A stretch of DNA of 64,000 bases from Liolophura sinensis (taxonomy: Eukaryota; Mollusca; Polyplacophora; Chitonida; Chitonidae): NCBI RefSeq assembly GCF_032854445.1, contig NC_088296.1, positions 9,398,706 through 9,462,705 on the forward strand, written 5' to 3'. The stretch's first letter is position 1. Every line of letters begins with the position of its first letter. Made by a program: the position numbers and the translations under genes. Shown piece by piece: positions 4,803 through 64,000 of this stretch. The notes beneath the pieces were generated by a model. The model was not told the origin of the DNA and searched no databases. It worked only from the letters and a program-made list of their open reading frames with translations.

Positions 4803-5028
4803 TCACGCATCATCGGTCGAGTCCGTCGAACCTGTGGAGAAATGGCCGGTGCCGAAAGGAAAGGCGCTGTTACCGAACCTGTCCTCCGGGACGGACGCCC
4901 AGCTTCTGTCGCCACGGTAGAATCCTTGATGCCAGATGTCAGGGCGGGGCAAGGAAAAGGGGCGGTCCTCGTCTTCAATGGATGACTCTTCCTTTGAGGA
5001 GGAGGGCGGTGCTTTCTTGCCGGAGGTG
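4803..5028 (-). CDS. Terminal exon: cytoplasmic tail and stop codon
   Basis: The exon starts after a pyrimidine-rich acceptor (ttcccacag) and contributes one base to the split codon TG|C, which matches the phase-2 donor of the transmembrane exon. It encodes 74 residues and ends in TGA at 4803-4805. The tail begins TSGKK, has a Ser/Glu/Asp-rich stretch (SSSKEESSIEDED) suited to acidophilic kinases, then an aromatic- and arginine-containing middle (DIWHQGFYRGDRSW) and a Ser/Thr/Asp-rich end (STGSTDSTDDA). I recognise no ITAM, NPxY or kinase motif. There is no internal Met early in the exon, so a scan that needs an ATG start misses this frame. Confidence 0.8.
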
Positions 5029-6234
5029 CTGTGGGAAAGAGAACAGGTTTGATTTAAAGTAGTTTCTCAACGTTCCTTAGGTATTTTTGTTGGGTTAACG
5101 TAGCTTTTAACAAGATTTCGGTCCTTGGACGAAGGCGTGTCATTGTAGCAGGCCAGGCCTCATGGACCCAGAAATTTTTGTAGTGCTACCTCACTAGATC
5201 ATCATACCGAAGACACCAAAGAACGACGATCCATCCAGTCACATTGTACTAGTCCTACTCCTCTTATTGTGTATTCCAGGCGAGGTACTGCCAAGATTGT
5301 CAGTATGAAGTAATGATACGTAAGCCGTCTATCCACTAGGCCAGCGCCGAACGAAATTTACGGCTAGTTTCATGCTAGACAATATTTCGTTTGAAACATT
5401 TACTGCACTCGGGACCAAAATCATAAACCCGTACATGTAGTGAGTAAAAGACATATGACTTCCAGTAACATGTCTAGGAATTCTAGTCTCTGAGAAATTA
5501 CCATTTTACCGCACTTTTGGATTTTCAAATTATATTAGCGTTACCACAGGAATAATTAGACTGGTAATAAATCGATAGCGTAATTGTGGAACATTTGTTT
5601 GTGAGCAAATAGGATATCACCGGCACGTGATTTACACTGCTTATTTCCTACGTTATGCATTGTTTGAAATAGATAAGACTTACCAAACCTTTCTACACAA
5701 AACGCCCACAACAAAAACAAGAACGCACAGGCAGAGAAAACCGGCAACCGACGGCCACAGGATTTCTGTAAAGCCAACAACAACAACAAGTTCAGTCACA
5801 CTGGACAAAATAGAAGATGGGGAAACCACCCCTTGTGCCACACCACCACCACAGCCTACCCCAGTTAATGTACTGATAATTTCTTGGATGGTGCTTTGCG
5901 CCATTGCAAGATCGCAGAAGGCCTTTCGCTGAAGTCCTGATAATTTCTTGGATGGTGCATTGCACAAAATGTACTACTGCAACTGGCCTTCAGCTGAAGT
6001 CCTGACAACATCGTTTATATGTTGTCCAGGTCCAGTTGGTTTGTAGGTTAAAGAGTACTTACTGTTAAAGAGTACTTACTGTTATTATTTCGCATATTTA
6101 CAAGGTGTTTAAGTAAAAATTGTACTGAAAGTTGCTCTTTCACATGCGAAAAGGTAGCGGAAATAGGGTATACGTAAACAAACAGTGTATTTTCCTTATG
6201 AGATACCCAACGTAGAGCGTCTTCCTAAATTTAA

Positions 6235-6269
<35 letters not shown>

Positions 6270-9200
6270 AGGTTCCAGAACAACTAGCTCACCGTGGGGT
6301 ATGAATGACAGTCCTGGAGACATATTTCCTGGAGACGTATTTTCTGGTGATCTTGGATTGCACGAGCCTGAAAAGTCAAGATTTATAATTCAAGAAACAA
6401 ATACATGGTGAAGAAAAGCACAAATAAATTGTATTATCTTTACCATGATATTACCTATGTATTATCTTTACCATGATATGGCCTATATATTATCTTTACC
6501 ATGATATGGCCTATGTATTATTTTTACCATTATACAGCCTATATATAAAGACTATAGCACAGAGAATTCCCCACAGTTAACGTTTTATTCTGGCTGTCCA
6601 TCCAGATGCAGATGCACCCCTCCCCCACTTCCCTACAATAGTAACCATGGCTTGAGCAGACATACAACTGCAGCCACCAAATTTATGCATTTATTTGATT
6701 AGTGTGTTACGTCGCACTCAAGAATATTTCAATTATACGGCGGTGGCTATCATTGTGGAGGGAGGAAATCGGTCAGGTCCGGGGGGAAAGCCACAATCAT
6801 CCGCAGGTTGCTGGAAGACCTTCCCACGTACGCCAAAAGAGGAAGCCCGCATGAGAGGCAGAAAAATTTTTCTGTATTTATTTTTAACGGTAATGTATTT
6901 GATGTCAACGAGACTGCAGGCCTTGCATTACATGCGCTATATCATTTTTTATACCTTCTCCCTCCTAACCTATTCTACTGCCGAAAAGCTGCTCACCCAA
7001 AGTAAAGTTGGAAAACACACACTGGAGCGTTTCGTTATTGAAGGCTCTGATTTCTTCGTCCGTTGCCCTTCTTAGATCTTCCCGACATGCACATCGACCG
7101 TTGATACACTCTTGTTCTCTGGACAAGAAGCACGTGTCCAGGCATCGTTCTCCGAGCAGAGGCCTTCCTGGCCTTTCACAGAACGTCCCGTCGCAGCCGG
7201 GAATGTAGCCTTTTTCACACTCGCAAGTTTTCTTCTCTTGATTGCACTTCATGAAGAGCCCGGCACAGCGTGTCACGCAAGTCTCGTTGTAATATGCCGC
7301 TAGAAATAAAACCAGAGAATAAATTACATAAAATATAGCCTAATTTATAATTTATGTCATTTGCTGGTGTTGAATGCTGCACTCAGGATTTTTCGCTTTA
7401 TTTGACAGCTGTCAGCTTTATACATGGAGGAAACCGGAGTGTCTATACAGTCCATGCTTAAGCCTGTGGGTCTAATTAGTGAGAACTGGATTTGAACCTG
7501 CGACACTATGGATCACAACTTAACCGACTGGGTCGAGTAGACAGCTTTAACCAATTATACAGACAAATGGAATAGTCTTCTTATGCCGAGTACGACGTCA
7601 GGTTGTCGCAAAATTACCAATGCTAGGGTAGCCTAGAGTAGGACTTGTTTCGTTGATTATCACTATTTCGTATTTTCGAAATACATAAGCTACTACTCTT
7701 TTTCAAGGATTAACCTCCCTTGAAGGAAAGCATATGTCGTTTATTTCGGTATTAAAGCATATGGCACTATGGAATATATTGCCCTTTACTTTACATTCTC
7801 GCAATGCACAAAACTAAATTGTAATGATTCAAAAGCGGTTACCCTTAGTTAGTCACACTGATCACTGTGGTTGTTTAAATTCCATCACACCAGGGCTTCC
7901 TAATGCCATCAGCATCAGATAGTGGAACTGATACCGGTCGTCAAGGGGGGATAATCCATGAAAAGGGTAGTAATCTATACATTACGAAAACATGGAATAC
8001 AACTCACGAAGCAGACGCCCCATCCACTTTGCCATAGAGGCTGATATGTCTACCTTGAAGAAGGCATTAGTCGTTTAATGCCAAATTGCCGGCAAACGGT
8101 TGCCCAGATTTAGTCGCCTTTTTACAAAATCTTTTCATTTATATTACCTTTTTCGCATGTCTTTAAGTCCAGTGAAGCCACATAACCCACGTTACAATAA
8201 CAAACATTGCCGGTGCAGTCACGTGGCTTGCAGGCAGCGTAGCTGGTGCACTGGTAGTCCCACAAACATACTCCGTACAAACTGACGCTTCCGCTAGTCC
8301 AGACAGAGGGCCACGTGTAGAGCGTTGTTGTCGTTGTGGTCAAATTGAGGCAGAAATCTGAAATATTGTGAATTGATTCGAATAAACATCCGCATTTATT
8401 TTACTGATTAAATGATACATATACCCAGGTCAATCTGTACCTTGCGATTGGGCTTCAATGTTTAAACTGGGTTTAATTCTTTAACAGTTGCTGAAGAAAA
8501 CTGACTGATTTCCCATATACTGGTTTACTGCATTTTAGAGCTTAACCTGTAAAGATTTTGAACACCACACCCTCTATTCTTAATAGAATTGGGGGGGGGG
8601 GAGAGATTTTTAGAGGAGTATGCAATCATTTTATTCACCGGCAAGTATTTACAAGAATTTAAATTAATAGCTTTGGATTGATCTTTGTTGTTGTTGTTGT
8701 TGTTTTGTTTGCAGATAACCTTACCCAATGAATACTCCTCGGGTCTACACTGACTTAGAGTATCATTGAAGGCCAGGATTTCGTCACATGTGGCACGTCT
8801 GGTCCCATTACGGCACGCGCACCGTCCGTTGACACACGTCTGTTCCTCGTCTAAGTAGCAGTCGTCTCTGCTCATGTCACATATTTCTCCCAAGAGTGGC
8901 CTGTTCTCAGGGGTACAGTGCTTGCCGTTACTATTGGGTATCATACCAGACTGACATCGACAGGTCTTAGTGAGATCATGGCAAATCATGTTCACGCCTG
9001 CGCAGCGCGTAATGCAAGGTTCATCGTAGAAGGCGTCTGTAGAAAGTGAAACCATAATATTCTGGCATTTGGCGGAAATAGAAATGCAAAAAAATATACA
9101 TATTCCCCGGTACTTTGCATGCGTTAAAACAACGTTTAGCGCCAGTGTATGCGTTAACAATCATGAGAGGGAACCCATGTATTATATGCGTATTAAAATG

Positions 9201-12200
9201 ATAGAAAGAGTGGCTTTCAACGGCGCGGCCATTTTAATTTGTGAGTAAAGTCAAGTAACTCGTAATCATGCAATCAAAAACCAAACAAACCTTTAAGATA
9301 AATGAAATTACTTTGTTATTAAATATTTACTCGTATTATAGCTATCTTATTATTAAGAAAATAGTTTTGCCTCTTTTTTTAAATTAAGAAAACCGTTACC
9401 AGCATGCTGTACAAACACAATAATCATTTGCCCTTTTCTTTTCCATTGTTTTTCGAAAAACAATGGCATGCGGAGTTCTGACAAGGTGTGCATCGCAGCT
9501 GAGCAATATGGGATTACCCATTTTTTTTTCTTTGTATTGTTTCTTGTTTTGAAAGAAAAACACAAACCTTTTTCGCAAGTGCGGTAGTCAATTGAAGGTG
9601 TGTAACCCGCCGAGCATGTGCACAAATATCCATCGCAACCCCGAAGTCTACAGCGAGCGTTCTGGGGGCATTGGGCATCATTGAAGCAGACACCGAACAC
9701 GATTGAGTGAGCTATAAATAACGTTCAAAATAATAGTTATTTAGTTATTACCAAGAAAGCGAATACAGTTTGAGCATTAAACATGTCAAACACACCAAAA
9801 AATCCCTGGTAATTTTAATCGTGAAAATGTTGATCTTTCTTGATGTTTAGTGGACCTTCGGTTTTTCTTATTACTTCAATCTTGTCATGGATCAGCAACA
9901 AATGCCATTATGTTGTCATTACCAAATTGGAGAATCTGATTTCTCAGCATTTATCGTGACAGCATGTCACCAGAAACAGTGGATCTCGCAAACTGTGGGC
10001 CCATTATGAACATGACCTATACTCCTTTCACATACTGTACGGTGCAAACATTCTTCGCCGGTGTTTTCCTTTAAGGTAATTTTGCTTCAAAAAATGAGCT
10101 ATATACTCAAGAATGAATGAATCTGGCTTAGAACTATTTCGGCAATATACATACTCAAAAAGTAAGTCTCATCGATGCACTGGCCCCTGTAATCAAAGGC
10201 CATCAACTCTTCACCAGTCATCGGTCGAAGTCCCGCGTTACAGAAGCAGACGTTGTTAACACAGGACTGCTCATTGGAAAGCTGACAACGTCTTGAGCAG
10301 GCCTGACCCAGGAGATCGTAGCCAGGTAAGACACAGTTAAGACCGTCATTCCCACGGTAATACCCTGGGTTGCACACGCAACGCTTCGTAACCGCATCAC
10401 AAGTGGTAAACATTCCAGCACAGCGAGTAACACAGGAGTCATTGTAATAAGCAGCTGAAAGATTAAGCAATTGGTGTTTACCACCGTACTCAAGAAGTAC
10501 GTTTGAACGGGCAGGTGTATGAATAGAATAAACAGCCGCTTTGCGCCAAGTAACTGGGAAAAAATATCATGACTTAAAGCCGCAGCCAATACTGCGAGAG
10601 CAGGACTTGAACACGCAACTAGGTCAAGGATGTGACAGTAGCGTCAAAATTTATTTACTTATTTGATTGGTGTTTTACGCCCTACTCAAGAATATTTCGC
10701 TTATACGACGGCGGTCAGCATTATGTCTGGAGGAAACCGGGTACAACTTTGGGGAAACCCACGAAAACCGGGTACAACTTCGGGGAAACCCACGAAGTGT
10801 CAAAATAGCACCCTAATAATTGGAGCCTTGAAGACTCGGAAAACACATGCTAGATATAACCGTCTTTCTGCAAACGTGTTTACGTGTTATGCTACAACAT
10901 CAACCTCATTTATAAATGAGTACTATTTATAGTTCATCTTAATTAAACCCTGATATTTACGTGTACTCTCAACAATCTATTAACATCACAGAAAGTCTGT
11001 GAGTGATGTTAGAACGTATTCTGTTCTTGTGAATGTATTCTTTCTTTGCAGCACATTACTCTACTCAGATCACAATTTGAATTGTTTCTGATGTCAGCAA
11101 ATCCATCCGCCATTCCCCAAAGATATCGCACTGACTGAAGGAAATATGACTCAAAAAAACGGGTTAATCATACATACCAGCTTCACATGCTGTCCGGTCT
11201 AGTGATGACACGAAGCCAGCGTTACAGTAGCAGATCGTTCCGTTCGGGTTCCTCTCTTTACATAAAGCGTTAGATGGACAGTCCCAGTTGAACGTACAGC
11301 TGTTGAATAGTCCTACTGCAGTAACGGAAGAAATATTGAAACATTAAGCAAATGAGGACATAGTGGAAAAAAAACCGAATAAACAAAGTTAAATGTCAAA
11401 TGGGTGAGTGAGTGCTTGGGGTTTAACGTCGTACTTAACAATTTTTCAGTCATATGACGACGGAGTTCTTAGAGTGTATGTAATGTGCCTCCTTGTTGCA
11501 GGACGAATTTCCACAGCTCTTTTATCTAGTGCTGCTTCACTGAGACGACTTACCGAAGGCAAGTAAACCGCCCCGCCCGAGCCATTATACTGATACGGGT
11601 CAACCAGTCGTGTCACTATCCCCTTCATTCTGAACGCCAAGCGATGAAGTTACAACTTCCTCTTTAAAAGTCTTAGGTATAACTCAACCCTGGGTTAGCC
11701 CTGGATCTACCGCTCCCAAAGCGTGCGCTCTACCAACTGTGCTATTGGGGGCCGGTCAAGTGGGTGAAGTTGGGATTATGCAATGGAGAAAATACTTGTA
11801 ACAGTACTTTCCTAAAGGGAATCGACGAAGCGCGAAGCACTGTTACGAGTGCTTTCTCCATCTGAAACAATAGTCACTAACAATATTCATGTGTCTCAGT
11901 GACTTTAATGATAAAGCATCTGACATACTGTCCTTTTTGTGCACTGAACTTGCAGTGAATTTGTTGATCTTTCTAGATATATACATATTTTGACTACATA
12001 TATCTACGAGGCTGAAAACTTCGTTACCGTCTTTTATGTAACACGTTCGTGAATTTATAACACATTGTTTTATACATGCGGTTCCGGATGAATTCTGTCG
12101 GATATCTGCCTTCATGTTTTTTGGATCTTTGAATACATGCGTTCATTACACAGTACAGCAGTAGAACATGCTATCGCATTTGCGTAACAAATGTAACGGT

Positions 12201-15200: not shown

Positions 15201-16153
15201 GTTAATTAGTACTTTGCAGAACGTCCATGGTTTTGTCTTGACACTTGAAAGAAAAAAAGAGAATAGAGAATAAAAAAAAATTACCTAGTCGGGCTGAGGA
15301 ATAATTCCTGCACTGAGGAAGTTCACTGTTGAAAGCTCTTATTTCAAATTCAGTTGATGACCGGAGACCATCTTGGCAGACACAGGTGCCGTTTACACAT
15401 TCCTTCTCCCTGGGGTGAAGACAGTCCTCAGTAACGTTGCACCCTCCATCCAGAAGGGAGAACCCATTAAGCACACAGTTTCTGCCGTCTGCCGCCAGGT
15501 GGCACCCTGGGTTACATACACATCTCGTGGTGTTCGTGTCACAAGTCATGTTCAGTCCCGCACACCGAGATACACAGACGTCTCCGTGATAGGCGGCTAT
15601 GCGTGGAAAAAAGACAAATATTTACGACTAGTTGTCTTTCACATAGGCATAACTTTTGTTGGTAAATTTTTATATTTTACATCCAAACGCAATGAATTCG
15701 AAGAAGAAGCATTCTTTTTAAACGGGGACAAGCACAAAACTATCTCAGCCGACGCAGAAGCTACAGTACTGATCGCCAAGGAAGCTACGCGCAAGTACCG
15801 CTAGGTGCGCTTTCTGAAACTGGTCTAAAGATACACAAAATCATGATACTGTCAAAATCTAAATAACAGAATTTCGTGTTTGTTGATTTGTTTATTTATT
15901 TGATTGGTGTTTTACGCCGTTCTCAAGAATATTTCACTTATACGACGGCGGCCAGGTAGGAGGAAACCGGACAGAACCCGGGGAAACCCACGACCATCCG
16001 CAGGTTGCTGCGAGACCTTCCCATTTACGGCCGGGAGGAAACCAGAATGAGCTGGATGTGAACTCACAGCCACCGCATTGGTGAGAGGCTTTTTTTCTTC
16101 ATTACGCTGCACTAGCCCGATAACCAACTTCGTGTTTGTCGAGATACCGTTTC

Positions 16154-16250
<97 letters not shown>

Positions 16251-19200
16251 AATAATATTTTTCTTAATCAACCGTCCTTGTAGAATAACCTTTTTATACG
16301 GCTATGAACAGCAACTCCAGGAAAAGATTCAAGGGTTTGAATTTCGAGAAAAAAAATATGATCCGGATGTTCTATCCCCTAACATTTTCAAATATAAAAG
16401 ACTAAGAAAATCTCACAAGAAATGGCGTGTTACTTAGTTTGATTTCATGGGAAATTCGTGGTGTATTGCAATTGGCACAGTAGTTTACGAGGAGATGCAC
16501 GGACAAAATCTGAATACAGGGAAGGCATTTTTATACAGTCCTAAACGGAAGTAATTATAAAAAAATATTTATCCGATTGCCATTAAACTTAGCCCTGCGC
16601 TAGTGTAGATAACAGGCAAGATGTGTGGTAAGTTTGATCGAAATCGGCTTAGTAGTTTGAGTGGAGATGCATGGATAAAACCATGTAGACAGACAGGATG
16701 ATTCCAGTGTACCCCCTAATTTCGTTGAGGGTGGGGAGAATACATAAAACTGATGGACATGAAATGAACAATTCGGGAGTAAGGCGATCAACAACACTGA
16801 AAATAAATAAGTAATGAATGAATGATTATGGTTTCACGCCACATCGGCAAAATCTATGGCCATATACGTGGCGAGAAATAAATGAAAACGCCGTACTGCC
16901 ATACCTGTGATGCATCCTGTATTGTCCTCAGAAGCCATATATCCGGTGTCACAGATGCATAACCACTCATTGAACCGTCTCTCCACGCACGAGGCGTGAC
17001 TTGGACACTGACCGTCATAAATACAAGAGACAAACAGGACCAAGTTCCTGTGGATGGAGCAAAAGGGAGAGACGAATGAATCCACAAATCTATACATGAG
17101 TTAATTTTGAAAGATTTATTTGATTGGTGTTTTTTGCCGCACTCAGGAATATTTTGCCGTACTCAAGAATATTTCACTTGTACGACGGCGGTCCAGGACC
17201 ATCCGTAGGTTGCTGGGAACCTTCCCACGTACGGCCGGTGAGGAAGCAAGCATGAGCTGGACGAACTCACAGCGACCGCATTGGGGAGAGGCTCCTGGGT
17301 CACATTTTGAAAGAAGAAATTTAGCAGCCTACATAAATGTGTAATGAAATGCAATCAAATGTCCCGATAAAAAAATTCTAAAAAATCAATCGAACAATAT
17401 TTGTGTACAATATTTTCTGATCTTTCGTCTGGCATATACTTCACGTTAGTGTTTAGTCTGTGTACTCACTTGCGACGTTTTCTTTTTTAGTGCGAGTTGG
17501 AAAAGAAAAATGTGACAAAAACTTACTTATGAAGTAAGAGCTTTTGGTACACTGAGGACTTTCCGTGTTGAATGCCCTTCTTTCTTCTCTGGTGGTAGGC
17601 CTTGATCCGTTTCTGCACGTGCAGACGCCATTCACACAAATCTGCTCTTCGGCGTAGTTACAAGAAGCTTCCAGACAGCTTCCTCCAAGTAAAGCCGAAC
17701 CGTCAGGTACGCAGTTTTTCCCGTCCGCCGCTAGGCGGCAGCCCGAGTTACACACGCATGTCTGTGTAGTCGAATTACAAGTCATATAGAGTCCGGCACA
17801 CCGGGACATGCAGAAGTCGCCGTAGTACGCAGCTGCAAACCAAATATGGAGGCAAGACAATCAGAAAGTGTATCAGTAACCGGGTATCTACGACGCAATA
17901 GACTCCGAGATCGCTTGGCCATGTTCCCAGATAACAAATGTATTTCTTATTATTTGATCCCCTTTAACTGCTCTGAGTCGTTACATTTAACAGTCTAAAT
18001 TTGTCCTGTTACCTACGCTGAACTCATTTTATTTATTTATTTGATTTGTGGTTTACGCCGTACTCAAGAATATTTCACTTATACGACGGCGGCCAGCATT
18101 ATGGTGGGAGGAAATCGGGAAAAGCCCGGGGGGAAACCCACGACCATCCGCAGGTTGTAGGCAGACCTTCCCACTTACGGCGCTGAACTCAAAGCGCCAT
18201 AGCTGTACGCGACAAAAGCAGGTATACCTGGCTTTTAACGTTGCAATGAACATACATGCGACTGACGCATACGCCACCCACCACCCCTTCCCACGGACAG
18301 CATCCGTACCACCATTTTCGAAACACGTGACTCCGTTGCCAGCAAGGACTGAAAGCGCCATACTTATATTCGAACAAAACAAGTTCCCCGTGAAATTAAC
18401 GTAATTCTATTTAATGAAGATTATAACGTTAAAATGAACACATATGTGACTGACACATATCCCCGGATACCATCAGAACTTTGCGAACCACCATTTTCGT
18501 AATACTTGACCCCGTTGCTAGGGAGGACGGAAAGCACAATGCTTGTACTCTAAGAAAACAAGTTTCCCGTAAATTTAACGTAATTATAATTAATAAAGAC
18601 CATGACGTTAAAATGAACACATATGTAACCGACCTACTTCTCTTCTCACAAATTAAGATCATCTCTTTTTTTAAGTTATTAACACATTATTATTAACACA
18701 AACCTAAAGTGACTACCCCATAAGCTTCAATTGTCATTCAATGGTGTACGTCTTCTTAGCTTAATTCGAAATTTTCGCGAGGTTATATTTTTTCCCGGAC
18801 GAAGCTGAGGGCAGCCGGCTGGAATCGAAAGTGAAAGTTGGCGAAGCTTCCCTTGTTGTTGGCGTGCCAGGAACATATGTGTTAATTGTGCCGTTATGGC
18901 CTCTGTTATTTAGGGATAACTAGGTGATATAAGGTGATATAATATCAAAACTACTGCAGGTTGAAAGTAAACATGTTTTGTGACGCACATCTTTGATGCC
19001 TTGAGGACAGCACCCTCGAAAACACGGAATTCCAGGTTAGTGTAGGAAAGACTACAAATATGTATGGACCGTTTCCTTTTAACTTTTCTCCATTATTGTA
19101 GACATATGGGACACACAGTTCCCAATCAATCAAATATTGTAGACATATATTACACACAGTTCCCAATGAATCAAATATTGCTTATAGACGCTCATTACTT

Positions 19201-22200
19201 TTTTACTATACTCTATTTCTGGAAATTCCGGAAGGACCATTTTTTTTTTCAGAGTGTACTCACCAGCTATACAACTCAAGCTGTCCTGAGATGCTATATA
19301 TCCACTGTTACAGTAACAAATCCTTCCATCTGGTCTCCTCTCCAAACAAGAGGCGTGCCTAGGGCACTGTTCGTCATGGATGCACGGTAAGAACAGGGCA
19401 ATTGTTCCTTGAATAAAGCATTGAAACAAATAATAATAAATACAACTTTCCTCTGCAACATATGTGAATAATAATATTAACGTTGGAACACGTATAAAGA
19501 AGCAACAGTTGAAATTTCTCAGATGCCTTGAAGAAAACATAAAAATTATCCGGAAATCAGATTGAAAGAGCGTCAAAAAATTTGTATATATGATCGTTTG
19601 ATATTTTTTTCGATTTTCTTTTTCTGGAGAAAAGATTATTTAAACTTGTTCTTCTATAGTGGGTATTTGTTACCACCTTTTGGTATTTATCGTTGTTGCA
19701 TTATAAAGCTCTAAATAATGATGTGAAATGAATAGCCGTCGCCACATGGACCCGGAGTATTTCCGCCTACAAGAGCAGGTCCCATGCTATGTAGACATAT
19801 TCATTTTGCGCTGTTACGCTGCCGTGATAATAGTCTATACGTTTTCTTTACAACTATACTGAAACAATGACCTATTACACAAAAACAACAGGGCTTGACA
19901 CTTACCTAAGTAATAGGAAGTTGATCTACATTGCGGTAAAGGGCTATTAAACGCCTGTACTTCGTCTTCACGCGTACGTCTCAGTCCAGTCTTGCAAGTA
20001 CAGACTTGCTGTACACAGTCCTGCTCGCTGTCGTAAATACATCTGTTGGTGGCACAACTTCCTCCTAGCAAAGCGAAGCCATTAGGGACACAGTTTTTAC
20101 GATCAAAGGATAAGTGACTTCCTTCGCTGCAAACACATTTCATGGTCTCCGCGCTGCACGAGAGGTACAGACCTGCGCAGTCGGATGTGCAATCCTGTCC
20201 GAAATAGGCCGCTGCAAAGTAAATAGGCAGAGGTTTCATGTAGGCTCTTAGAATAAAAAGGAAATTTTCGTGAAAATGGTTTAATTGAATCCAAAATTTT
20301 GACCTTGCGTCATTTGTTGGAGTTGCCACGTTAATCTACTTAAAGTGACAGAATACATAATAATTTTTGTATTGACAATTGCTGTCTTGCGATGTGTGAG
20401 GAAAGTGTCACAAGTTTGGCAAAAAAAATGTGACTGTAAATGCAGAAATGAGCAAAAAGGCTACACAACTTAGGCTTGAATTACTTCCGGCGGGAAAGAG
20501 TCCATATGACACCAAAGTATATGTAAAGCTGACCTTTTCTCTTATTTCGAAAGAATACCTTTTGGTGTACCTGGGTACTTTGCTGTCCACAACATTATGT
20601 TGCTGTAACATCCATTTTTCCATTAGGGAAACAACAATATGTTTAATTTAACACAATATTTTAGAGTGTAATATGTACACGACAAAATTAGGCTGTTTCC
20701 ACATGGTCTTCGTCCAAGTGCCTCCACCAATGAAGAAGGTGCAATCCACCCTATACTTCATCGATCCTATTTCGGAAATGCTTTTTATTTATTTATTTGT
20801 TTATTTATTTCATTGTTCGAGAATGTTTACGATTGTTATACCATGGCGGTCAGTTTTAAAAGTGGAGGGAAGTTGGTCTGCCCGGAACAACCCAACGAAA
20901 ATTGGCAAGTTACCAGTAAACTCGAGGACGTGTATCATATTTCGTATCGGCGGGAGGCAAGAAATCTCTGACGAATTTCCACAAATATCATGTAAGATAG
21001 CGTAGTTTACCATGTTACTACCACCAAGACCCCGGTAACACCGTTGATCTCAGAAAGTCCCTAATCGAGAATGGGGATTGGATCCATGTCTTGTATTGCG
21101 GCAGTTGCCTTAATCTTCTAGTGAGCCAAGTCACGGCTTGGCTCACTAGATTTAGAATTTGTCTGATCTGATTTAGGTGTTCAACGCACGAAAAATAAAG
21201 AAAAAGCAACCCGCGGATGGCCGTGGGTTTCCCCCGTGGGTGTCCAGTTTACTCCCAACATAAAACTGGTTGACGTCCTATAAGTAAAATATTCTTGAGT
21301 ACGATGTAAACCATTTATCAAATAAATATATACATATACCATTTGATACATTTTAGTGAGCTCCGTGGCCGAGGTGGTTAGCCCGCCAGCGCGATGCAAT
21401 GATACAGAAGCCTCTCACCAATACGGTCACGGTGAGTTTCAGTCCAGCTCATGCTGGGTTCCTCTTCGGCCGTAAGTGGGAAGGTCTGACAGCAACCTGC
21501 GGATGGTCGTGGATTTCCTTCAGGTTCTGCCCAGTTTCCTCCCACCATAATGCTGGCCGCCGTCGTGTAAGTGAAATATTCTTAAGTACGTAAACCAACA
21601 CTCCAATAAAATAAATAAACGATACATTTTATGTATGCTTCATCGTACACTAACGTACGGGCAATGCGCCAATTATTTTTTTTTTCATCGTGTTTATCGC
21701 CAGTAAATCAGCAAACTAACAAAACCCCAAATACAAACCAAAACCCATTTGCATGATGCATTAGATCTAACCCTTTAACTGTGACAAAACAATTCCATTA
21801 CTTACCAGATACACAGGTGAGGTTGCCTGGAGACGCCATCAGTCCAGCGTTACAATAACAGATCTTTCCATTAGGACGTCTTTCCAGACAGGATGCACCA
21901 TCGGGACATTCAGCGTTCGATAAGCAAGACGAAACAGTCTGGTGCTCCCTGCATCAACAAGAAAACAGAAAATATTAATTTAATTAAGGATGGAAATCCG
22001 CCCCCCCCCCCCCGCCTGCCAGTCCCAATTTGTTCCAGCTTTTGAATACTTTCTGCTTTTTGAAGGCGAAGAAAAAATAACATGATGTACATCAGATCCA
22101 AAAAATGCTGTATTGGAAAAAACAGTTTTATGTTTTTTGGAATTCTTTCCACCGTGTGAAATGCTTCCAAAACATCATATTTTACGGTGGTATGTTCCTA

Positions 22201-49200: not shown

Positions 49201-52200
49201 AATCGTAACTGGGCAGAAAACCTAGGTCACAGTAGCAAATCAGACCGTCACAGCCTCTTCTTTTACAAGAAGCCCCGTTAGTTAAACAGCCAGAGCTCTC
49301 AGTACATGGCCTAAACAAAGCTGCGGGGGCAGTGGTTTGGGACGTCGTTCTTGGTACATTAACAGTTGATGTTGTTGTTGATGGAGATGATCCGTCTAAA
49401 AAACACCATAGACATTTTCGTTTTTAGTTCCAATTTCATAAAACGTACCTCGGAAATATTTTAAATAGACTAATAATATGAATCTTAAATACTAACATGT
49501 ATGTAAAATTTGTAGACATATGCGTCGAAACAGACAGCCGTCAACCAAGTTCCCAGTCAATAATCGCAAGGCTAATTACCAAAATGGCGTTTAAGTCAAA
49601 CTACCAAAGGACTACCAAAGAAGGTACATAAAGTACAAAATTAGGGCGGAGTCATGCAAAGAGAAGCAGTTAACAGTTTTCAATGGTGTTGGAAAGACCC
49701 AAAATATGTTTTGGGGAAATCTGTAATCAAATCGTGCACCATGCTAGAATGTAAGTAGTCGATAATAAAAAATATGTCGCAGTTGCGCTTTGATTGCAAC
49801 TCTTCGTCTATTCAACTTATTGATCTAATTCCAGGTGAAGAATGTACAGCCCCCTAGCCCCGGGATAAGCCAGTTACATATTTTAAGCATATATAATTTC
49901 TATTTTAGTTAATATTATAATGGTGATACAAAATTTGGTGTGCGTTTTCTTTCCTTATATCAATGTTGTATAAATACAATTGTGTCATTTCTTACACGTA
50001 ACCTACAAAGGTTCGACATATTTACTCAATAAGCTATAGTTCCTTTACCAACGCAATAGATAAGTTTGAGAATAATCTGGAAAGACCACAATACGATTAC
50101 AAGTATAGCTTAATATCACACTCAAATACTTAAACTTTTAGAACAATGAAGGCAATTCGTTTAGAACACAGTGGACAAATCGTGGTAATTAGACACAGAA
50201 TTTTTCAATTTTTAATTTTGTGTTTTTCAAAAACCTGCATAATCTTGCTGATAAAAGATATAAAAACCATTCATACCTAGAGTGTAAGTATTGGATATGC
50301 ACTGTCTTTGAGGGTTATTGAAGGCCTGAATCTCTGCCGTTGTCATACGTCTTAAATTCGACATACATGTGCAAACCCCATTCACACATTCTTGCTCTGT
50401 AACAAAAACACAACCATCTCCGCATGCTTCTCCCAGCAGACCTCTTCTCGGCAAAACGCAGTTTTGGTTATCCCCAGCCATGACATAGCCCAATAAACAT
50501 TCGCACCGGCGTGACAAAGCGTTGCACACCATAAACAAGCCAGCACACTGCGTTATACACACGTCGTTAATATAGGCGGCTGTAATGGGGAAAAAGTATA
50601 TTAGACATGTCATAGATGATTTAAAGCAAAAGACATAGTAAACCAATACTACAAACACCCACTGCACTGAAGTAATGTTAGTCACACAAAACTAGATCTC
50701 ACAAGACAAGAATATCTCTAACCACTCCCAGCACAACACTGCATCCATTTATTCTTTAGTTTACTCACTTATTTATTGCTTTAATTAATTAACTCCAAGT
50801 TGTAGTTAAGAACATTTCATTTATATGACGATATTCGCGGTTACAATGCTAAAATGACCTGCAAATTCAATTCGATTCAAGCGCCGAAACTGACATGCAT
50901 GTCTCTGTTGTCAAACACATTGTCATCTGTCAGTCAATTGCACACTTTTTCAGGTGAGTCCGGAGAGGAAACCAGCATAAGATCTACCTCAACTAACAGT
51001 GACTGCATTGGTGAGACGCTTCCAAGCCACTGCTATGACCACTCGGCTATAGAGAACCCTACATATATAGCCAACGGATTTAAACTTCTAACGAGCTACA
51101 AAAAATAATTTACATTATAACAAAAGCGCTGGTTAACCACTCAATTTCATCAACATTACTAATTAAACAAAGGCTATGTCATGTAACTTGTTGTTCGATA
51201 TTTACAGCAGCAAAAGAAATTAACAATCACCTCTTTCACAACCAGCCATATTGGTTGACGCCACAAATCCTTCGTTACAGATACACAGTAGTCTGTCAGG
51301 ATAACGAACACGGCAGGAAGCCTGAGCAGGACACTGGCTATTGGAACTGCAACTTGACAAAACTCCACGGAATGGAGCTATAGTGGTTGTGGTACGTTGT
51401 GGTGTTGGAGATGACACAGTAGGCGCTGCTGTTGTAGTTGGTGGTGGTGCCATTGTTGTTGTGGTTGGCGGACTTGATCCATCTGAAATAATACATATAC
51501 ATGTTTTCTACTTATATTGGCAATCTGTAAAGTTTAAATCTGTCCCATAATTCGTCATACATATATTAAGTATGTATAATTTCTACCTTAGTTAATAATA
51601 AAACACCCTTACACTATTTGCTCCGCTTTCCTTTCTTTATGTCAATGTTTTAGAAATACAATGCAGTCATTTTTGACACCTAACCTACCACGTTTCTCTC
51701 CTTTGCCCCAAAACATAAGGCTTTTATCAACAGTTTGGATAAGGTGTCAGAATCGACGAGAAAAGTTTCATTGCGCCTAAAGGTTTAGGCTTTTTTTCCA
51801 CAGAAATACTTAAACTTTTAGAATATTAAGCACAAATAGTTTACCAAAAAGTCTACAAAACGACGTCATTAGACACAAATTTTAATAATCTGTTACTTTC
51901 CTAGCTTTCAAAATCTCTGAATCTCAAGCCATTATGTCCTTTGGAGATTTGGTGGTTTGCTTTAAATCCAGCCAAGGTGGGCAAATTTCTTTTACAGCCT
52001 TTGCTCTACATGCATTGCTTAAAGGTAGCACATCGTCAATGTACCCATTACTGAATGACAACGATCGGTCCTCGTGAGGATTACTACTTAATAGTTTTGC
52101 ATATACCAGGATTCATACCAGAGCAGGCATATTTTCGCCAAAAGAAGGCCACAATTTTTAATGCAAACAGTTAATCATCAAACGCCTTCAGTGCAAGTTT

Positions 52201-55200
52201 CTCATATTCTACAATAAAGTACACTTCTCCTGTCAATAATAAACGACTAAATGTCAAAGATTCCTTTCTCAAATCGTTATAAGTGTCGTTCACGTTGCCG
52301 AACGCGGAGAAAGCAGCGGACTATCCATCATCTTTGGTTTTATCGCCACAGATGGTTGCAATCAAAGCCAAACTCCCATACACAATTTGATTATTCTACA
52401 ACTGAATTTATAGTACGGTACATGATTAGAATACAGATTTGATTCATTCGCCTAGAAAATTCTTCCATCTTTCCATCTCTTGATCAATTTCTTTTCATTT
52501 CTTCTTTTATCTTTCTCCTTACTCCTTTGCAACATGTTGTTTGCGCTGAACGGCGTTTTGCTAAATCATTTAGCAATTATTAACCCAGAAAGCTTATTCT
52601 ATTTGACGGCTGTGACACGAACGTCTCTTTCAACATCAAGATTATATGCTTTGAACTGATAGCCAAGAGTTTCACATTTACTTGGAATTACAAAGGTCAT
52701 GCTTACCTAGTGTGTATATCCAGCTTATACACTGACGTTGGGGATTATTGAAGGCCTGAATCTCTGCCGTTGTCATACGTCTTAAATTCGACATACACGT
52801 GCAAACCCCATTCACACATTCTTGTTCTGTGACAAAAACACAACCATCTCCGCATGCTTCTCCCAGCAGACCTCTTCTCGGCAAAACGCAGTTTTGGTTG
52901 TCCCCAGCCATGACATAGCCCGGTAAACATTCGCACCGGCGTAACAAAGCGTTGCACACCATAAACAAGCCAGCACACTGCGTTATACACACGTCGTTAA
53001 TATAGGCGGCTGTAACGGGGAAAAAGCATATTACAAGTGTCATCCTTGATTTAAAGCAAAAGTCATAGGAAACCAATGCTCTAAACACTGAATGTGCTAA
53101 AGAATTATTAGTCATACAAAATCGAAACACCTTCTCACAAGACAAGAATATCTCTAACCACTGCCAGCACAACACTGCATCCATATTTATTCTTTAGATT
53201 ACTTATTTATTGATTTATTTTTGTATTGATTTATTTATTGTTTTCAATAATTCTTTAAGTTGCAGTCAGCAACTTTTCACCTATATGACGACAGCCACGG
53301 TTACATGGCTAAATAAAGGCCGGCTGACACAACTAGATTTATGTGTCGAAACTGACATGCATGTCTCTGTTGTCAAACACATCGTCATATGTCGGTTGCT
53401 TGCACACTTTGTCAGGTGTGACCGGAGAGGAAACCAGCATAAGATCTACCTCAACTAACAGTGACTGCATTGGTGAGACGCTTCCAAGCCACTGCTATGA
53501 CCACTCGGCTATGGAGAACCCTACATATATAGTAAACGCATTTAAACTTCCAACAATCTACAAAATAGAATTCATATTATACCAAAAGCGCTGGTTAAAA
53601 ACTCAATTTCATCAACATTACTAATTAAACAAAGGCTATGTCATGTAACTTGCTCTTCAGTATTTACAACAGCAAAACAAATTAACAATCACCTCTTTCA
53701 CAACCAGCCAAATTGGTTGACGCCACAAATCCTTCGTTACAGATACACAATAGTCCGTCAGGATAACGAACACGGCAGGAAGCCTGACCAGGACACTGGC
53801 TATTGGAACTGCAACTTGACAAAACTGCACGGAATGGAGCTATAGTGGTTGTAGTACGTTGTGCTGTTGGAGATGACACAGTAGGCGCTGCTGTTGTAGT
53901 TGGTGGTGGTGCCATTGTTGTTGTGGTTGGTGGACTTGATCCATCTGAAATAATACATATACATGTTTTCTACTTATATTGGCAATCTGTAAAGTTTAAA
54001 ACTGTCCCATAATTCGTCATACATATTTTAAGTATGTATAATTTCTACCTTAGTTAATAATAAAACACCCTAACACTATTTGCTCGGCTTTCCTTTCTTT
54101 ATGTCAATGTTTTAGAAATACAATGCAGTCATTTTTGACACCTAACCTACCACGTTTCTCTCCTTTGCCCCAAAACATAAGGCTTTTATCAACAGTTTGG
54201 ATAAGGTGTAAGAATCGACGAGAAAAGTTTCATTGCGCCTAAAGGTTTAGCCTTATTTTCAACAGAAATACTTAAACTTTTAGAACATTAAGCACAATTA
54301 GTTTACCAAAAAGTCTACAAAACGACGTCATTAGACACAGATTTTAATAATCTGTTACTTTCCTAGCTTTCAAAATCTCTGAATCTCAAGCCATTACGTC
54401 CTCTGCAGATTTGGTGGTTTGCTTTAAATCCAGCCAAGGTGGGCAAATTTCTTTTACAGCCTTTGCTCTACATGCATTGCTTAAAGGTAGCACATCGTCA
54501 ATGTACCCATTACTGAATGACAACGATCGGTCCTCGTGAGGATTACTACTTAATAGTTTTGCATATACCAGGATTCATACCAGAGCAGGAATATTTTCGC
54601 CAAAAGAAGGCCACACTTTCTAATGCAAACAGTTAATCATCAAACGCCTTCAGTGCAAGTTTCTCATATTCTACAATAAAGTACACTTCTCCTGTCAATA
54701 ATAAACGACTAAATGTCAAAGATTCCTTTCTCAAATCGTTATAAGTGTCGTTCACGTTGCCGAACGCGGAGAAAGCAGCGGACTATCCATCATCTTTGGT
54801 TTTATCGCCACAGATGGTTGCAATCAAAGCCAAACTCCCATACACAATTTGATTATTCTACAACTGAATTTATAGTACGGTACATGATTAGAATACAGAT
54901 TTGATTCATTCGCCTAGAAAATTCTTCCATCTTTCCATCTCTTGATCAATTTCTTTTCATTTCTTCTTTTATCTTTCTCCTTACTCCTTTGCAACATGTT
55001 GTTTGCGCTGAACGGCGTTTTGCTAAATCATTTAGCAATTATTAACCCAGAAAGCTTATTCTATTTGACGGCTGTGACACGAACGTCTCTTTCAACATCA
55101 AGATTATATGCTTTGAACTGATAGCCAAGAGTTTCACATTTACTTGGAATTACAAAGGTCATGCTTACCTAGTGTGTATATCCAGCTTATACACTGACGT

Positions 55201-58200
55201 TGGGGATTATTGAAGGCCTGAATCTCTGCCGTTGTCATACGTCTTAAATTCGACATACACGTGCAAACCCCATTCACACATTCTTGTTCTGTGACAAAAA
55301 CACAACCATCTCCGCATGCTTCTCCCAGCAGACCTCTTCTCGGCAAAACGCAGTTTTGGTTGTCCCCAGCCATGACATAGCCCGGTAAACATTCGCACCG
55401 GCGTAACAAAGCGTTGCACACCATAAACAAGCCAGCACACTGCGTTATACACACGTCGTTAATATAGGCGGCTGTAACGGGGAAAAAGCATATTACAAGT
55501 GTCATCCTTGATTTAAAGCAAAAGTCATAGGAAACCAATGCTCTAAACACTGAATGTGCTAAAGAATTATTAGTCATACAAAATCGAAACACCTTCTCAC
55601 AAGACAAGAATATCTCTAACCACTGCCAGCACAACACTGCATCCATATTTATTCTTTAGATTACTTATTTATTGATTTATTTTTGTATTGATTTATTTAT
55701 TGTTTTCAATAATTCTTTAAGTTGCAGTCAGCAACTTTTCACCTATATGACGACAGCCACGGTTACATGGCTAAATAAAGGCCGGCTGACACAACTAGAT
55801 TTATGTGTCGAAACTGACATGCATGTCTCTGTTGTCAAACACATCGTCATATGTCGGTTGCTTGCACACTTTGTCAGGTGTGACCGGAGAGGAAACCAGC
55901 ATAAGATCTACCTCAACTAACAGTGACTGCATTGGTGAGACGCTTCCAAGCCACTGCTATGACCACTCGGCTATGGAGAACCCTACATATATAGTAAACG
56001 CATTTAAACTTCCAACAATCTACAAAATAGAATTCATATTATACCAAAAGCGCTGGTTAAAAACTCAATTTCATCAACATTACTAATTAAACAAAGGCTA
56101 TGTCATGTAACTTGCTCTTCAGTATTTACAACAGCAAAACAAATTAACAATCACCTCTTTCACAACCAGCCAAATTGGTTGACGCCACAAATCCTTCGTT
56201 ACAGACACACAATAGTCCGTCAGGATAACGAACACGGCAGGAAGCCTGACCAGGACACTGGCTATTGGAACTGCAACTTGACAAAACTGCACGGAATGGA
56301 GCTATAGTGGTTGTGGTACGTTGTGGTGTTGGAGATGACACAGTAGGCGCTGCTGTTGTAGTTGGTGGTGGTGCCATTGTTGTTGTGGTTGGTGGACTTG
56401 ATCCATCTGAAATAATACATATACATGTTTTCTACTTATATTGGCAATCTGTAAAGTTGAAAACTGTCCCATAATTCGTCATACATATTTTAAGTATGTG
56501 TAATTTCTACCTTAGTTAATAATAAAACACCCTTACACTATTTGCTCGGCTTTCCTTTCTTTATGTCAATGTTTTAGAAATACAATGCAGTCATTTTTGA
56601 CACCTAACCTACCACTTTTCTCTCCTTTGCCCCAAAACATAAGGCTTTTATCAACAGTTTGGATAAGGTGTAAGAATCGACGAGAAAAGTTTCATTGCGC
56701 CTAACGGTTTAGCCTTATTTTCCACAGAAATACTTAAATTTTTAGAACATTAAGCACAAATAATTTACCAAAAAGTCTACAAAACGACGTCATTAGACAC
56801 AGATTTTAATAATCTCTTACTTTCCTAGCTTTCAAAATCTCTGAATCTCAAGCCATTACGTCCTCTGCAGATTTGGTGGTTTGCTTTAAATCCAGCCAAG
56901 GTGGGCAAATTTCTTTTACAGCCTTTGCTCTACATGCATTGCTTAAAGGTAGCACATCGTCAATGTACCCATTACTGAATGACAACGATCGGTCCTCGTG
57001 AGGATTACTACTTAATAGTTTTGCATATACCAGGATTCATACCAGAGCAGGCATATTTTCGCCAAAAGAAGGCCACACTTTCTAATGCAAACAGTTAATC
57101 ATCAAACGCCTTCAGTGCAAGTTTCTCATATTCTACAATAAAGTACACTTCTCCTGTCAATAATAAACGACTAAATGTCAAAGATTCCTTTCTCAAATCG
57201 TTATAAGTGTCGTTCACGTTGCCGAACGCGGAGAAAGCAGCGGACTATCCATCATCTTTGGTTTTATCGCCACAGATGGTTGCAATCAAAGCCAAACTCC
57301 CATACACAATTTGATTATTCTACAACTGAATTTATAGTACGGTACATGATTAGAATACAGATTTGATTCATTCGCCTAGAAAATTCTTCCATCTTTCCAT
57401 CTCTTGATCAATTTCTTTTCATTTCTTCTTTTATCTTTCTCCTTACTCCTTTGCAACATGTTGTTTGCGCTGAACGGCGTTTTGCTAAATCATTTAGCAA
57501 TTATTAACCCAGAAAGCTTATTCTATTTGACGGCTGTGACACGAACGTCTCTTCCAACATCAAGATTATATGCTTTGAACTGATAGCCAAGAGTTTCACA
57601 TTTACTTGGAATTACAAAGGTCATGCTTACCTAGTGTGTATATCCAGCTTATACACTGACGTTGGGGATTATTGAAGGCCTGAATCTCTGCCGTTGTCAT
57701 ACGTCTTAAATTCGACATACACGTGCAAACCCCATTCACACATTCTTGTTCTGTGACAAAAACACAACCATCTCCGCATGCTTCTCCCAGCAGACCTCTT
57801 CTCGGCAAAACGCAGTTTTGGTTGTCCCCAGCCATGACATAGCCCGGTAAACATTCGCACCGGCGTAACAAAGCGTTGCACACCATAAACAAGCCAGCAC
57901 ACTGCGTTATACACACGTCGTTAATATAGGCGGCTGTAACGGGGAAAAAGCATATTACAAGTGTCATCCTTGATTTAAAGCAAAAGTCATAGGAAACCAA
58001 TGCTCTAAACACTGAATGTGCTAAAGCATTATTAGTCATACAAAATCGAAACACCTTCTCACAAGACAAGAATATCTCTAACCACTGCCAGCACAATACT
58101 GCATCCATATTTATTCTTTAGATTACTTACTTATTGATTTATTTTTGTATTGATTTATTTATTGTTTTCAATAATTCTTTAAGTTGCAGTCAGGAACTTT

Positions 58201-61200
58201 TCACCTATATGACGACAGCCACGATTACATGGCTAAAAAAGGCCGGCTGCCCCAACTAGATTTATGTGTCCAAACTGACATGCATGTCTCTTTTGTTAAA
58301 CAAATCGTCATATGTCAGTTACTTGCACACTTTGTCAGGTGAGACCGGAGAGGAAACCAGCATAAGATCTACCTCAACTAACAGTGACTGCATTGGTGAG
58401 ACGCTTCCAAGCCACTGCTATGACCACTCGGCTATAGAGAACCTTTCGTATATAGTCAACGGATTTAAGCTTCTAACAATTTACAAAATAGAATTCTTAT
58501 TATTCCAAAAGCGCTGGTTAACCACTTAATTTCATGAATATTACTAATTAAACAAAAGGAATGTCATGTAACTTGTTCTTCAGTATTAACAACAATACAA
58601 TAAATTAACAATCACCTCTTTCACAACCAGCCAAATTGGTGGACGCCACAAATCCTTCGTTACAGATACACAACAGTCCGTCAGGATAACGAACACGGCA
58701 GGAAGCCTGAGCAGGACACTGGTTATTGGAACTGCAACTTGACAAAACTGCACGGAATGGAGCTGTAGTCGTTGTAGTAGGTTGTGGTGTTGGAGTTGAC
58801 ACAGTAGGTGCTGCTGTTATAGTTGATGGTGGTGCCATTGTTGTTGGTGTTGTGGTTGGTGGACTTGATCCATCTGGAATAATATATACATGTTTTTTAC
58901 AAATCTTTGCAACCCGTAAAGATCAATCTATACCATAATTCGTCATACACATTTTAAGTATACATAATTTCTACCTTAGTTTAAACAAAGACATTGTTAC
59001 ATTATTTGCTATGCTTCCTTATCTTTAGGTTAATATTTTATAAACACAAAGGACTTTTTATTTACATGTACCGCACCACGTTTATCTCATTGCCCCCCAA
59101 AACATAAGGCTTTCATTCACACAATAGATAATGTGTCAGAATCGACAAGAAAGGTTTTATTTGCCAACAAACATTTAGCTTAAATTTCCACAGAAATACT
59201 AAATCTTCTAGCACATTAGGTATAAATCATTTTCGAGAACGACAACAAATCGACGTTTTTAGACGGAGATTTAAATAATCTGTTACTTTCCTAGCTTTCA
59301 AAATCTCTCAATCTCAAGCCAGTATGTCATGATGAGATTTGGTGGTTTGCTTTAAATCCAGCCAGTGCGGGCAAATATCTTTCACAGCCTTTGCTCTTCA
59401 TGGATTGCTTAAAGGTAGCACATCGTCAGCGTACCCATTAATGAATAACAACGATCGATCCTGGTGACCACTACTAGTTAAAAGTATGCATATACCAGTA
59501 TTCATACGAGAACAGGTACTTCCAATTATGAAGGTCATCCTTACCTAGTGTGTACGTCCAGCTTATACACTGACGTTGGGGATTATTGAAGGCACGAATC
59601 TCCTCAGTTGTCATGCGTCTTAAGTTTGACATACACCTGCAAACCCCGTTCACGCATTCTTGCTCTGTATCCAATGCACAACCATCTCCACATGCCTCAC
59701 CTAACAGTCCTCTTCTCGGCAAAACGCAGTTTTGGTTGTCCGCAGCTGATACATACTCCGGCAAACACGCGCACCGGCCAGACACAGCGTTGCACACCGT
59801 GAACAAACCAGCACACTCGGTCATACACACGCCGTTAATATTGGTGGCTGTAAAAGAGAAAAGTCAGTGTTAAACAAACTATAGTTTTTCCAAATCAAGA
59901 GAAGTAGGAAACCAATGTTAGAAAGCCACAAAGTCGTCAAGCCTTATTATTGGATATAAAGAAAAACACTATTAAAACCTAAGTTTGTTAACCTTGTTAA
60001 AACTCAACAAAAGAAACTGACAATAACCTTTTTCACAGACAGCCAAATTGGTAGACGCTATGTATCCCTCGTTGCAGATGCACAGTAATCCGTCTGGGTA
60101 GCGCACCATACAGGAAGCATCGACAGGACAGTCACTGTCCTCATTGCAGGCTGACAAAATAGCGACGAATGGCACTGCTGCCGTTGTTCTTCTTGTTGTA
60201 GCTGGACTTGTTCGTCCGATAAGTGTAAAATCAAAAGTTGGAAATTGTTGCAAATTATTTTCGTCACATTGTTCTGAAATATAAAACGCAGTGCTATTTT
60301 TAACATTGCCGTTTAGACAGGCAAAATAAACATTTCTATGTTTTTTTCGCGCTGTTAAAATTAAAATACTTATGTGACATTACAAATAAAATAGATGCTA
60401 ACCTAGAAAATAGCCGATGTCTCTGCACTGAAGGTCAACGTCAGGGTATGCGCGAAGCTCTGCTATTGTTGCTTTGCGTTTTCCACTTATGCATTTACAT
60501 TGTCCTTCTACACAAGTCTGTTCAGTTGAAAGGGCACAATTGTCAACATTGCACGGCTCTTCCAAGAGAGCTTTTCCATCCTCAGTACAGTCTTTATCAC
60601 CAGCGCTCGGTGAGAAGCCTTGCTCGCATACACACTTCTCGGTATTCCTATCACACACAGTGTGCAATCCACTACATCGTGTCACGCAAGTCTCGTTTAA
60701 GACGGCAGCTGAGGAGAAAAATTATATTCGTTTAGACTGATTTTGCCTTAGGCAAACTTTTAGCTTTACACTTTAGTGCTATTTTCACAGATATGACAGA
60801 AAACAATGTTGTTTCTTTTAACGTTCCTAGCTAAAACAACATTGAACATGCAGTTGTGAATATTCTCTTTCGCCTGATCCCATTTCCACTGTCATCCAGG
60901 TAGTAGTCTCGCCAAAAATACATAAAATATGGCAGTTTTTAAAAGATATGTGAGACAGAACCACGTAGAAATTTTCCTAAAGAGATAAAAAAATACCTCA
61001 GTCTAAATTGTTTTATAGGCGTTAAACGAACTTTCCACAGGAATTGCATACAACAGTGTATTATCCAAACAGCCTCAACACAGCAATACTACAGACTACG
61101 GGAAACATTCAGTTTGTTTAAGTTCTAGACACGTATCAAAGTTCAGTGATATGAAATTGCAAGAAATCGTCCTTTTTCACTTTTCTTACCTGGTTCGCAA

Positions 61201-64000: not shown

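Follow-up and report, generated by a model that had tools for sequence, protein, structure and literature searches.

A predicted giant membrane protein gene built from alternating two-exon cassettes in the chiton Liolophura sinensis

Mechanical translation of the window, i.e. the whole stretch of 64,000 nucleotides (64 kb) analysed here, revealed on its minus strand 49 coding exons of two types, 25 D and 24 E exons, which alternate strictly from position 64,000 down to 6,997, one D exon being truncated at the end of the window. Among the complete exons, 46 of 48 were open, bounded by GT-AG and of phase 1-1, in agreement with the original prediction of 49 strictly alternating exons, nearly all of phase 1-1. 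Downstream of the last D exon, a single stalk exon, a single transmembrane (TM) exon and a single cytoplasmic tail exon were read directly from the sequence. As had also been predicted, their phases match (1-1 for the stalk, 1-2 for the TM exon), and the tail ends in a TGA stop at 4805-4803. The features are, in window coordinates:

63751..64000 (minus): D exon, 3' part; the whole exon, 64053-63751, crosses the window end
63031..63285 (minus): E exon, Thr-rich linker plus EB/EGF-like module
62250..62552 (minus): D exon, two six-Cys modules; final copy of the 1501-bp tandem unit
61190..61402 (minus): E exon
60403..60708 (minus): D exon
60028..60273 (minus): E exon
59545..59847 (minus): D exon
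58616..58873 (minus): E exon; linker-type acceptor 58873 matches its sisters (the automated pick was the nearer acceptor 58747)
57631..57933 (minus): D exon, 2462-bp tandem unit
56155..56406 (minus): E exon
55169..55471 (minus): D exon, 2462-bp tandem unit
53693..53944 (minus): E exon
52707..53009 (minus): D exon, 2462-bp tandem unit
51231..51482 (minus): E exon
50277..50579 (minus): D exon
49183..49395 (minus): E exon
48397..48702 (minus): D exon
48022..48267 (minus): E exon
47538..47840 (minus): D exon
46614..46865 (minus): E exon
45651..45953 (minus): D exon
41712..41927 (minus): E exon
39488..39790 (minus): D exon
38524..38667 (minus): E exon, short type without Thr-rich linker
37388..37690 (minus): D exon
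35666..35803 (minus): E exon, short type
34829..35131 (minus): D exon
33837..33980 (minus): E exon, short type
31709..32017 (minus): D exon
31372..31515 (minus): E exon, short type
29838..30143 (minus): D exon
29529..29672 (minus): E exon, one module Cys changed to Pro, still open
28227..28532 (minus): D exon
27547..27690 (minus): E exon, short type
26130..26435 (minus): D exon
24542..24685 (minus): E exon, two module Cys lost, still open
22894..23199 (minus): D exon
21806..21948 (minus): E exon, 1-base frameshift near 5' end
19906..20211 (minus): D exon
19264..19452 (minus): E exon; alternative acceptor 19407
17527..17832 (minus): D exon
16905..17047 (minus): E exon, 1-base frameshift near 5' end
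15285..15596 (minus): D exon
11178..11315 (minus): E exon, short type
10155..10454 (minus): D exon
9568..9711 (minus): E exon, short type
8725..9036 (minus): D exon
8148..8357 (minus): E exon with Thr-rich linker
6997..7299 (minus): last D exon, adjoins the membrane part
6293..6367 (minus): stalk exon, phase 1-1, two N-glycosylation sequons; read directly
5684..5765 (minus): TM exon, phase 1-2
4803..5028 (minus): cytoplasmic tail exon, conserved S[IL]PRPD[IV]W...DRSWA motif, TGA end

The coding length within the window was about 4,150 amino acids, and the six-cysteine modules came to 74 (25 x 2 + 24, one D exon being cut); the figures predicted for the visible part, about 4,175 residues and some 72 modules, were close to these. 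In the frameshifted E exons 21948-21806 and 17047-16905, the shift is of 1 base and lies between the acceptor and the first cysteine. The E exons 24685-24542 and 29672-29529 have a Cys-to-Pro change in common, with one further Cys loss in the former.

When the array was followed into the flanking chromosome (180 kb upstream and 20 kb downstream of the window), it was found to reach 127.3 kb in window coordinates and to comprise 64 D and 65 E exons. Of these 129 exons, 118 were open, of phase 1-1 and of a length that is a multiple of 3, and 11 were not open as assembled; D 73049 was counted as open, yet it bears two compensating indels. The sole break in the alternation was an E-E pair at 113.7/113.4 kb, the first member of which is decayed, with stops in every frame. 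At the 5' end, an exon with an ATG at 127,993 encodes MADLMKTPGKPASWLPAIGL, which continues in phase 1 into VLLLGGTFKSG of the first E exon; judged by eye, the two exons probably encode a signal peptide whose hydrophobic core is split by an intron. The gene spans about 123 kb, from 127,993 down to 4,803 on the minus strand, corresponding to 9,403,508-9,526,698 of the contig, and is about twice the size visible in the window, to which the size prediction had been confined. The sum of the signal peptide, the open exons and the C-terminal exons gives a predicted product of 10,568 amino acids and 1,126 kDa (1.13 MDa). The array is gap-free, with zero N within it. As two frameshifted E exons lie outside the repetitive block, the assembly holds no unbroken full-length open reading frame unless these exons are skipped or the frameshifts are errors.

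Several other features were noted around the gene. Beyond its 3' end, at about 130-600 of the window, lies a minisatellite of ~31-bp units, THTPLSMYVHICVPLIH-like and open in several frames, and a 200-N assembly gap was found at window -1496 to -1297, 6 kb past the gene end. Further on, at window -16438 to -17632 (about 9.381-9.382 Mb, minus strand), EB/EGF-like exons that have diverged from the D and E exons look like a separate downstream gene. Upstream of the gene, a long open tandem repeat, CMSVMCCGNCDPADD, at window coordinates 141.8-145.9 kb looks like a satellite and not an exon.

The whole array was scanned at the DNA level for phase-1 hydrophobic exons, yielding 21 rows. Two of these were the TM exon at 5765, with a mean hydropathy of 3.03, and the remaining 19 were weaker (2.28 at most), most of them overlapping D or E exons, their acceptor tracts or repeated introns. 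A lone signal-like open reading frame (39754) was discarded as an internal start, being an out-of-frame reading within D 39790. The scan gave no strong signal-peptide or TM exon inside the array, which therefore reads as one gene. Several separate genes, with starts or ends inside the array, are disfavoured by the single strong TM exon (5765) and the single probable signal-peptide exon, and at the DNA level the proposal of a giant type I membrane protein encoded by one gene holds. These results support a single gene of about 123 kb, most exons of which would be joined in one mRNA.

The open D exons measured 300-312 nt and contained 12 cysteines in 51 of 58 cases and 13 in the other 7, with the spacing C3C6C6C1C12C11C3C7C4C1C21C in 37 of 58 and a spacing off by one residue in 10 more. 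The E exons carry a single module, spaced C5C5C9C1C12C in 44 of 60, whereas 12 more have an extra cysteine; many of them start with a Thr-rich linker, and in 28 recent copies the linkers consisted of 33% Thr, 17% Pro and 11% Ser. The original prediction had not matched the domain order to any named family and had pointed to a profile search of the D exon against EB, EGF and other cysteine-rich families. In such a search, run at E<=0.01 on 15 members of each exon type, Pfam EB (PF01683) matched 10/15 D and 10/15 E exons, cEGF 9/15 D exons and FXa_inhibition 5/15 E exons, so that the modules can be assigned to EB/EGF profiles after all. Against EB, a single E exon scored 22.6 bits, below the gathering cut-off of 24.3 bits, as the other single exons with bit scores also remained below curated cut-offs, whereas a joined D-E query passed it with 29.3 bits. 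Profile matches in the PDB were weak (D exon to factor VII light chain, E = 0.014; E exon to micronemal protein 6, E = 0.0088). From its sequence, the D exon would be made of an EGF-like and an EB-like module, and the E exon of an often Thr/Pro/Ser-rich linker followed by one EB/EGF-like module.

The cbEGF start D-[IV]-[DN]-E with its Asx-hydroxylation consensus typifies fibrillin and calcium-binding EGF proteins, CCxGY is the Nim repeat motif of the Nimrod/Eater proteins, and Pfam includes a DPY model. The cbEGF consensus was absent from the 10,421 residues searched, as was RGD, and CCxGY was present in none of the 118 open exons. ZP gave no match at E<=1 in the last D exon plus stalk, TM and tail, nor at E<=0.01 in the 15 D and 15 E exons, and a DPY-type module was not matched by Pfam in those pieces or in the joined D-E query. 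Neither an EMI domain nor a lectin or other crosslinking domain was detected in the Pfam-scanned pieces of the array, and Rfam gave no match within the window.

The array contains tandem repeats of several lengths. TRF detected units of 1,501 bp (22.2 copies, 95.5-62.2 kb), 1,501 bp (4.2 copies), 1,500 bp (4.2 copies) and 1,727 bp (3.6 copies), the middle of the array being a 1,501-bp D-E cassette in about 22 copies. Self-comparison of the array revealed in addition an 8.7-kb segmental step, and the D-to-D spacing a 2,462-bp tandem at 58-53 kb. In a tree of the D exons, the most divergent copies came mainly from near both array ends and the youngest from the middle. Because every open D or E exon is of phase 1-1, D-E pairs can be gained or lost through unequal crossing over with the frame intact, and the 1,501-, 1,727- and 2,462-bp tandems and the 8.7-kb block show that this has occurred repeatedly.

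The quality of the assembly bears on how this repeat block is read. The chiton assembly of PMC11068029, renamed Liolophura sinensis by a correction (PMC12441733), is described there as made from 14x HiFi reads with a mean of 8.3 kb; this mean is shorter than the 33-kb repeat block, and the copy number of the 1.5-kb block is uncertain. Eight consecutive molluscan haemocyanin domains on another contig of the genome are consistent with a mollusc. Among 21 units of this block no two were identical. Four adjacent units (76.0-71.5 kb) showed 9-14 indel columns each, compared to 0-4 in the other 17, and the broken exons in them showed 0-2 substitutions relative to their sister exons, most of the differences being one-base indels; this cluster is most likely a local consensus error of the published assembly. 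Further frameshifts, at 106.9, 105.1, 98.3 and 88.1 kb and in the two older E exons, fall outside that explanation. After exclusion of the four noisy units, variable columns in the 17 clean recent units were 41/559 in exons versus 135/948 in introns (p = 0.00004) and indel columns 1/559 versus 10/948 (p = 0.06, not significant), p values that are optimistic because the units share descent. A stronger avoidance of indels in exons (1/9,486 exon versus 21/16,008 intron cells, p = 0.0007) was dropped, as shared differences had been counted once per unit, distinct columns giving p = 0.06.

These data could be read as a decaying or assembly-inflated array, consisting of several genes or pseudo-exons with an inflated copy number in the 1.5-kb block, as the 11 of 129 exons that are not open, the four indel-rich adjacent units and a mean read length below that of the block would suggest. 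This reading is improbable, since none of the 21 units is identical to another, exons are less variable than introns in the clean units, no strong internal start or TM was found, and the D/E architecture is retained in the paralogues described below.

Pairwise comparison of D exons gave Ka/Ks values (ratio of means) of 0.20-0.40 in six Ks bins that cover 569 of 1,653 pairs, the pairs outside the bins being saturated (1,001) or nearly without synonymous change (the remainder). For whole E exons, the ratio in the youngest bin was above 1 (1.23, 199 pairs). When linker and module were separated in the 28-copy E class (10 distinct sequences each), pN/pS was 2.79 for the linker and 0.47 for the module; therefore, in this class the excess in young pairs is due to the linker and not to the module. 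The 4-copy E class contrasts with it (linker 0.61, module 1.26), with very few changes. On these ratios, the D exons and the module of the 28-copy E class are under purifying selection. It was also considered whether the array behaves as a fast-changing coding VNTR, in which the number of 1.5-kb cassettes would differ between individuals and/or in splicing and provide an individual length and linker pattern for self/non-self recognition or defence; we regard this as quite unlikely.

The donors of the E exons in the recent block were weak, with GTCATT in 26 of 32 and a mean score of 6.19 of 9 compared to 7.25 for the rest, which could mean exon skipping. All 118 open exons are phase-neutral, and the two E exons with a frameshift could be left out of a transcript without loss of frame. 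Such cassettes might be spliced alternatively into a subset that differs per cell or tissue, as in Dscam or Dumpy, the latter being described as alternatively spliced (PMC2930355). Nevertheless, we consider a generator of isoforms unlikely: the recent D copies are near-identical, so that a choice among them alters length more than sequence.

A search of the same genome with the tail (E<=10) returned six places, two of them the gene's own exons, two paralogues elsewhere on its contig (9,200,959, plus strand, E 7e-5; 9,058,841, minus strand, E 8e-5) and two weak ones (E 0.18 and 5.7). In the 20 kb of flank examined for each paralogue, the 9.06-Mb copy showed 11 detected D/E exons in strict alternation, all of phase 1-1, the last one detected before the TM exon being a D. 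In the 9.20-Mb copy, also alternating, 4 of 7 exons were called as 1-1 and one as 0-1, and two, including the one adjoining the TM exon, gave no clear phase call. The D-E order is therefore not particular to the giant gene but is the same in both paralogues. When hydrophobic exons of phase 1-2 were sought, the giant gene and each paralogue yielded a single TM exon, with several candidate acceptors each; in the paralogues it lies 1.2-1.3 kb short of the end of the stretch containing the tail exon. S[IL]PRPD[IV]W and DRSWA were common to all three tails. By their alternation, phase 1-1 exons, phase 1-2 TM exon and PRPD[IV]W tail, the giant gene and its two paralogues form a family of D-E arrays.

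A D exon used as a genome query (E<=0.001) detected at least 101 places, all clustered on one contig (NC_088296.1), in the giant array and at 7.58-8.41, 8.99-9.2, 14.5 and 23.4 Mb. The giant array is the largest member seen here of a family clustered on one chiton chromosome. In a 10-kb sample, the segment at about 7.9895-7.9914 Mb contained an E exon, a decayed D exon, a D exon with 70% identity to the recent type, and a linker-type E exon. Cassettes near the recent type of the giant gene thus occur some 1.4 Mb away, related cassettes being spread along the chromosome.

A phagocytic or pattern-recognition receptor similar to Eater or NimC1, in which the array of cysteine modules would bind microbes and the tail would drive uptake, is possible, if doubtful. 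It would fit a single-pass protein that has an EGF-like array and shares a conserved tail with its paralogues, the clustered D places, and a YxxF endocytosis-like motif in two of the three family tails; Eater of Drosophila is described as having 32 EGF-like repeats, a TM segment and a tail (PMC4359741). However, the tail of the giant gene is the one that lacks YxxF, CCxGY was found in none of the open exons, and recent amplification has produced many near-identical modules, with purifying selection on the D exons and the 28-copy E module.

The reading that we prefer, with a probability of roughly 0.45, is that the gene codes for a giant type I membrane glycoprotein with one membrane pass, a mucin-linked EGF/EB rod that would tether the cell surface in a way analogous to Dumpy. 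A signal peptide would be followed by the alternating E and D exons, the stalk, a TM helix and the cytoplasmic tail, and the product would be a very long, disulfide-stiffened and probably O-glycosylated rod. By analogy, its role would be mechanical: the rod would tie the cell surface to the extracellular matrix or to a mucous or cuticular layer, the tail would couple it to a cytoplasmic adaptor, and the number of repeats would tune its length.

If expressed as modelled, the protein would be among the largest animal membrane proteins and would have its own length encoded by tandemly arrayed two-exon cassettes. The chiton gene would then illustrate how phase-symmetric exon pairs can allow unequal crossing over to enlarge a gene with the frame unbroken, and the three-gene family with its common cytoplasmic motif is open to direct testing.

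Dumpy of Drosophila, which mediates the adhesion of epithelium to cuticle, is according to PMC2930355 a giant membrane-anchored extracellular protein of modular build with an EGF-based repeating unit. The same source describes many small exons, the internal ones being multiples of 3 in all but one case, as well as tandem repeats that are nearly identical and are attributed to unequal crossing over; the chiton gene is likewise repeat-rich and membrane-anchored. In contrast, the repeating unit of Dumpy is EGF-DPY-EGF, with a DPY module of 21 amino acids, and a ZP domain is present (PMC2930355), whereas the chiton gene alternates 12-Cys D and 6-Cys E exons with Thr-rich linkers, and its tandem unit is an entire two-exon genomic cassette. 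As the scanned pieces yielded neither ZP nor DPY, the chiton gene is not classed as a Dumpy, which is nevertheless its closest working analogue.

Other known systems share single features with the array. Proteins with EB, cEGF or FXa_inhibition domains match the same profiles, although the scored single chiton exons stay below the cut-offs that only the joined D-E query passes, for EB. Eater and Nimrod proteins resemble it as single-pass receptors but differ in their Nim motif, and the chiton gene is far larger, with no EMI match in the scanned pieces. Octovafibrin from octopus, also a mollusc protein, has 29 tandem EGF repeats and disulfide-based mechanics (PMC10336842); it is, however, a load-bearing thread protein of 135 kDa with EGF repeats only and terminal C-type lectins, described without mention of a membrane anchor. 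Fibrillin and calcium-binding EGF proteins differ from the array in the cbEGF consensus, which the chiton residues lack. The D-E array architecture was not found announced among the open-licence papers searched, and its novelty is provisional. On that provisional basis, the parts of the gene are known modules, and the strict two-exon cassette and its scale are what is new.
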